A stretch of 6,429 nt of DNA, from contig JAPLDV010000374.1 in NCBI GenBank assembly GCA_026391235.1, positions 1-6,429 of the forward strand. The letters run 5' to 3'. The notes under the pieces are model-generated. The model worked only from the letters and a program-made list of their open reading frames with translations, made no database searches and was not told where the DNA came from. Source of the stretch: Bacteroidia bacterium (GTDB lineage: Bacteria > Bacteroidota > Bacteroidia > Bacteroidales > UBA12481). The translations under genes were made by a program, and so were the position numbers. Each line of letters opens with the position of its first letter. The stretch's first letter is position 1. Positions 4,830-5,402 of the stretch are shown here, in pieces.

Positions 4830-5222
4830 TTAGACTCTCCTGCGTTTGGGAGGACGGCAGCCGTTATGCGGCAGCGGCGTTACGTCAACGATCTCGATAA
4901 CTTCGATACCGCTGTTATGAATAGTACGGATAGCAGATTCCCTGCCATTGCCAGGTCCTTTTACGAAAACTTTTACTTTCCGAAGGCCCAGGTCGTATGC
5001 TACTTTTGAAGCATCCTGAGCTGCAATCTGAGCTGCATACGGGGTATTTTTCTTCGACCCCCGGAAACCGTTTTTTCCGCTTGAAGACCAAGAAATTACC
5101 TGTCCGGAATTGTTGGTCAGGGAAACAATAATGTTGTTAAATGAAGAATGGATGTGTGCCTGCCCGAGTGCTTCAACCTGCACAACCCGCTTCTTCGCTG
5201 CTTTAACTTTCTTCTTTGCCAT
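4830..5222 (-). CDS. rpsK: 30S ribosomal protein S11
   Basis: S11 lines the platform of the 30S subunit near the E site and the mRNA exit. With the ATG at 5222 the product is 130 residues, the normal S11 length, starting [14 protein letters not shown]. The conserved regions are complete: [49 protein letters not shown], and the basic C-terminus [15 protein letters not shown]. The frame stays open upstream to 5402, but residues before this ATG belong to a broken rpsM, so the ATG at 5222 is preferred. It lies 10 nt after the original S13 stop (5233-5235). No Shine-Dalgarno motif is visible, so expression may depend on ribosomes arriving from rpsM. Because of the rpsM deletion these would now produce an S13'-S11 fusion. 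Confidence 0.96.
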
Positions 5223-5232
5223 AGTCTGACGG

Positions 5233-5402
5233 TTATTTAGTCGCTTTCTTTTTGTTTGCCAGTCCTGAACTTTTCGATCTTTATCAACACCAGCTTCGTC
5301 CAGAATCTTACGGGATGTGCTTCTGCCAATTCCATAGATATAAGTGAGTGCGATTTCGCCCCTCTTGTTGTTTGGTATATCAACACCAACGATACGTGCC
5401 AT
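5233..5402 (-). pseudogene. rpsM: 30S ribosomal protein S13, internally deleted and frameshifted
   Basis: S13 sits in the 30S head, forms bridges to the 50S subunit and touches the P-site tRNA with its C-terminal tail. Codons 1-48 (from 5402; [17 protein letters not shown]... to KVQDW) are a perfectly ordinary S13 N-terminus. At about 5257-5261 the match stops. In a different frame the last codons of S13 follow (GCA AAC AAA AAG AAA GCG ACT AAA TAA, encoding ANKKKATK and a stop at 5233-5235). S13 of this type is about 125 residues, so about 70 codons are missing, and the missing length is not a multiple of three. The frame from 5402 skips the S13 stop, adds 12 unrelated residues ([12 protein letters not shown]) and enters rpsK in frame. 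Lost parts include the rest of the helix-two-turn-helix region and nearly all of the rRNA- and tRNA-binding C-terminal half. AAGGA lies 9 nt before the ATG. Confidence 0.9.

Follow-up and report, generated by a model that had tools for sequence, protein, structure and literature searches.

An internal 208-nt gap in rpsM of a Bacteroidales ribosomal protein cluster is probably an artefact or a very rare molecule

According to the sections of PMC4538834 that deal with S13, this protein forms bridge B1b together with L5, and ribosomes lacking S13 translocate faster. In E. coli, rpsM is listed among the genes that are nonessential by deletion (PMC7096426, Table 1). The statement of the initial annotation that loss of S13 is severely harmful in known bacteria therefore needs to be tempered, at least for viability in E. 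coli as given in that table. Ribosomal protein genes are often missing from MAGs, which is ascribed largely to binning in the relevant part of PMC9723686. Such binning losses are related to the case described here but do not explain an internal deletion of rpsM.

The stretch analysed here (the window, 6,429 nt) belongs to a Bacteroidales family. It carries on its minus strand the genes map-infA-rpmJ-rpsM-rpsK-rpsD-rpoA-rplQ, followed by ubiD, and a convergent thioredoxin-like gene; map and the thioredoxin-like gene are cut by the window ends. Earlier searches for relatives, starting from Bacteroidales matches, gave identities near 70%, and the best RpoA matches were 77–78% identical (among the best 80 matches of a contig scan). 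The order-wide DNA search, for which 393 genomes were taken (277 scored, 116 not scored), yielded genome G279 with 90% identity over query bases 1–2685. The window aligns end-to-end and colinearly with a 7.7-kb stretch of G279 in two pieces that meet at position 5259, with 86% identity (10 gap openings) and 93% identity (1 gap opening), respectively.

The break at this position was found repeatedly. In one DNA search, four of 12 genomes (G002, G005, G007 and G008) gave two alignment pieces that both ended at query base 2685 and lay 207 nt apart in the relative, and in a second search the same 207-nt break at the same query base was found in five of 12 (G279, G389, G483, G621 and G642). The remaining genomes of both searches gave a single piece or a break at nearby query bases. 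In all seven genus relatives aligned, rpsM has 378 nt and encodes an intact S13 of 125 aa, compared with 170 nt in the window (Table 1), where, in the alignment with these seven, sense bases 1–144 and the final 26 (TAA and the 23 coding bases before it) are kept and 208 nt are gone at 5258|5259. Since 208 nt correspond to 69 codons plus one base, the tail of rpsM is frameshifted. The reading of the initial annotation, in which the start and the end of S13 adjoin in different frames, thus holds against all seven relatives. Only positions 1–50 of the 128-position Pfam S13 profile are matched (43.8 bits, residues 3–52 of the 190-codon frame); the full-length domain expected of a functional uS13 (PF00416) is absent, and the remnant lies between rpmJ and rpsK, as expected of uS13.

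Table 1 Features of the rpsM-rpsK region, in window positions
Feature	Position	Strand	Description and evidence
rpsM as found	5402..5233	-	170 nt; S13 codons 1-48 plus last 23 coding bases and stop
rpsM remnant, S13 codons 1-48	5259..5402	-	Pfam S13 match; alignment with 7 relatives
Deletion junction, 208 nt of the relatives absent	5258..5259	-	DNA searches, alignments with relatives
Last 23 coding bases of rpsM and native TAA (5235-5233), in another frame	5233..5258	-	Identical in G642, G645 and G389
Open frame of 190 codons joining S13 residues 1-48 to complete S11 by a frameshifted linker	4830..5402	-	ORF list, Pfam
rpsK (S11) from its own ATG, 130 aa	4830..5222	-	ORF, Pfam; identical to P0030, listed as window-encoded
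CAG codon in the rpsK frame	5226..5228	-	Stop in 7/7 relatives (6 TAG, 1 TAA)

The surroundings of the break are in good order. The nine genes other than rpsM, including the cut map and thioredoxin-like genes, align to G279 without a lasting frameshift, and all neighbours are open; one pair of compensating 1-nt gaps occurs in ubiD and another in the thioredoxin-like gene. This agrees with the earlier description of a discrete deletion amid intact genes. The 48 kept S13 codons differ from those of G279 by three synonymous and two amino-acid changes, and K32 of the window is found in the intact S13 P0121 and E36 in the S13 of G645. Because neither the kept codons nor the neighbours show decay, the break is either very recent or not biological. 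Two further features of this cluster were noticed. The TAA that precedes the rpsM start in all seven relatives is AAA in the window (spacer upstream of 5379–5402). In L17 (2575–3171), the Pfam domain covers residues 20–116 of 198 and is followed by a long C-terminal extension rich in Lys and Ala; this protein differs from G279 by amino-acid changes in 31 of 199 codons, more than S4 or RpoA.

The bases at the junction do not bear out the three-base TGG microhomology proposed for the breakpoint. It would require GTG GCA in the undeleted gene, and GTG is found in none of the seven relatives, six of which read GTA and one GTT; the G that precedes CAAAC is the sole base clearly in common, so that about one base is shared. 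A single shared base is no more than is expected by chance, and it makes the junction different from a long-repeat collapse of the common assembler type. The motif ACTG occurs near both deletion arms but is offset and was given no weight as microhomology. A hairpin-driven deletion was also set aside, as the counterpart stretch of G279 (one fold, without shuffle control) showed no stem clearly linking the breakpoints.

A feature absent from the first account is that the shifted rpsM frame stays open up to rpsK and enters that gene in its reading frame, which creates a continuous S13N-S11 frame with the complete Pfam S11 profile (1–110 of 110) at residues 80–189. One could suppose that the cell uses this frame as a fusion protein, and that the loss of the stop ahead of rpsK favoured the fusion once the deletion was in place, because the frame runs uninterrupted over 190 codons and lacks the rpsK-frame stop of all seven relatives. 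However, the linker consists of nothing but S13 tail read in the shifted frame, and stops within 24 nt upstream of rpsK are similarly common in all frames: of 78 distinct loci, 65 have one in the rpsK frame, and 58 and 68 have one in the two remaining frames. The idea that the stop before rpsK is a conserved safeguard was rejected for the same reason, although a stop in the spacer or in the last nine rpsM codons closes the rpsK frame at 90 of the 92 loci, which include several per genome. Four-fold sites differing from G279 amount to 17/65 in rpsK, 21/83 in rpsD and 28/117 in rpoA, and with 24–26% divergence and about equally stop-rich frames one lost stop is unremarkable. We regard a used fusion as the least probable of the explanations considered here. 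The broader claim that a free-living Bacteroidales lineage has dispensed with S13 and produces S11 carrying a piece of S13 at its N terminus, in ribosomes without the normal S13-L5 bridge, is only slightly more credible and seems highly improbable to us; if it were true, it would represent a natural S13-free ribosome.

A real deletion could also be made harmless by a second full-length rpsM elsewhere in the genome. Exactly one full-length S13 match (profile 1–128) was found in seven of the eight genus genomes; the eighth gave no S13 match, its operon match being cut short within rpsK by the end of the contig. Sister genomes thus share no such loss, S13 being intact in seven and the eighth cut off. 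Across the order, 284 of 295 sampled Bacteroidales genomes have an S13 match, with a best E-value of at most 8.2e-24 in 281. On inspection, two of the three weaker matches are located where a contig ends, and the third is a divergent S13 whose single open frame was matched in two pieces; the stronger matches were judged by E-value, among those listed. As far as seen among these, no comparable S13 loss occurs in the 284 genomes, and the event is therefore rare in curated genomes. More than one S13 entry is listed for 11 of the 284, three of which were inspected: in G371, three contigs each carry a match above the cut-off, which may point to contamination, the extra entries of G425 are weak matches in long frames, and those of G458 are two pieces of one frame. 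Additional S13 copies or contaminant contigs occur in the order but not in this genus. Multiple entries in 11 genomes, among them G371 with its three matches, speak for a second rpsM, but the single match in seven of eight genus genomes makes it very unlikely. The initial annotation had left the choice between an intact rpsM elsewhere and an artefact or subpopulation; the former half finds no backing in the genus, and the balance tips towards an artefact or a minor molecule, also in view of the recurring public breaks described below. The DNA pattern of the intact copy gave no match in IMG/VR.

If the loss were natural, the same junction might be expected on independent contigs or genomes; it was not found again among the matches listed. 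No copy of the 190-aa S13N-S11 protein is among the best 120 of 8000 scored protein matches, and a 58-aa query gave no match with at least 90% coverage above 77% identity among the best 120 of 494 significant ones, a search that contigs whose gene caller retained only the 130-aa S11 would escape. The window S11 (P0030) is listed on 16 contigs. The closest intact S13 among the matches listed is P0121 (98% over residues 1–48, on 11 contigs), and none of them has exactly the 48 residues of the window. The S11 protein P0033, one residue from that of the window, is listed with a 5,379,043-bp contig; no S13 partner of this contig is among the best 120 S13 matches, where clustering may hide one.

A real, recent deletion of rpsM in part or all of the population would mean S13-free ribosomes and S11 made from its own ATG or in extended form. 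Consistent with it, the junction is clean and the rest of the cluster intact. Such a mutant is conceivable because E. coli survives without S13 where rpsM is listed as dispensable (PMC7096426), and S13-less ribosomes, as described in the part of PMC4538834 cited above, still work. Nevertheless, the single intact copy in seven of eight genus genomes (the eighth being cut off), the lack of a second contig with this junction among the matches listed and a remnant without decay argue against it, and we consider this explanation unlikely.

Similar breaks recur in public proteins. Among the best 120 of the 8000 protein matches scored, a motif test identified 31 S13-S11 fusions, 29 of which are counted on one contig; P0014 stands apart on two contigs. 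In 16 of the 31, counted by eye, the S13 tail and the S11 head meet in KKTVA-like stretches that resemble each other, and the others have their junctions elsewhere. The KKTVA-type fusions among the matches listed (P0002–P0007, P0010–P0016, P0023, P0026 and P0027) have 240 or 241 aa; one of them is on a 177,583-bp contig and one on two contigs. They may reflect repeat-driven collapse or genuine recurrent fusion.

Searching for short S13 proteins with the 58-aa query yielded 501 candidates, 494 of them significant. In a rough local alignment, 66 of the best 120 carried a foreign tail of at least five residues; many of the short S13s listed simply reflect a contig end or an indel. P0248, P0276, P0280, P0301, P0302 and P0325 have in-frame internal deletions with the normal tail kept, and P0252 and P0258 have apparent out-of-frame deletions ending in a shifted tail. 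P0325, a 58-aa S13 on a 1,299-bp JGI contig, joins its first 46 residues in frame to the last 12, with breakpoints nearly those of the window in another lineage. One common S13 N-terminus is found with different breaks (deletion or frameshift, some frameshift alone) in 16 of the 360 listed proteins, and two of these represent several member sequences (P0260 with 11, P0268 with 15), so that not all S13 breaks are singletons. Because it is not credible that one organism or close group comprises many separate S13-less lineages, we take most of these breaks as technical or as rare molecules. Singleton S13 breaks with scattered junctions suggest artefacts or rare molecules, with the reservation that the survey covered S13 breaks alone and the base rate of artefacts is uncalibrated.

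We therefore estimate at roughly three in four the probability that the 208-nt gap is an artefact or a very rare molecule and does not belong to the resident genome. The intact S13 of all seven aligned relatives, the lack of decay, the recurring one-off breaks and a junction not refound among the matches listed support an artefact; about one shared junction base, the multi-member P0260 and P0268, the rarity in 284 genomes of the order and the viability of E. coli without S13 count against it. We hypothesize a local error, in which a chimeric or deleted library molecule was assembled or two contig ends were joined directly where coverage was missing; alternatively, the gap may come from a very rare mutant molecule. 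The host Bacteroidales chromosome would then carry one ordinary rpsM, and the S13N-S11 frame would be a by-product of the frame of end-joining and one spacer substitution. As it stands, the case serves mainly as a warning. Public protein collections repeatedly contain conserved operon genes that are broken on a single contig, some of them as neat in-frame fusions, and inferring gene loss from such breaks requires support from reads.

Compared with described systems, the window shares with bacterial uS13 (rpsM, PF00416) the start, the first 48 codons, the last bases and the position between rpmJ and rpsK, and differs by lacking the middle 208 nt and by the frameshifted tail. It resembles singleton rpsM deletions and S13-S11 fusions (P0009, P0050, P0258, P0325) in the internal loss from rpsM, in or out of frame; some of these continue into S11, and they are mostly on one contig each. 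In contrast to the window, they stem from other organisms with other breakpoints, and P0325 is in frame. With the E. coli rpsM deletion strains listed in PMC7096426 it would share the absence of full S13 from the cell, but those are deliberate laboratory deletions, whereas the window is known from DNA alone.
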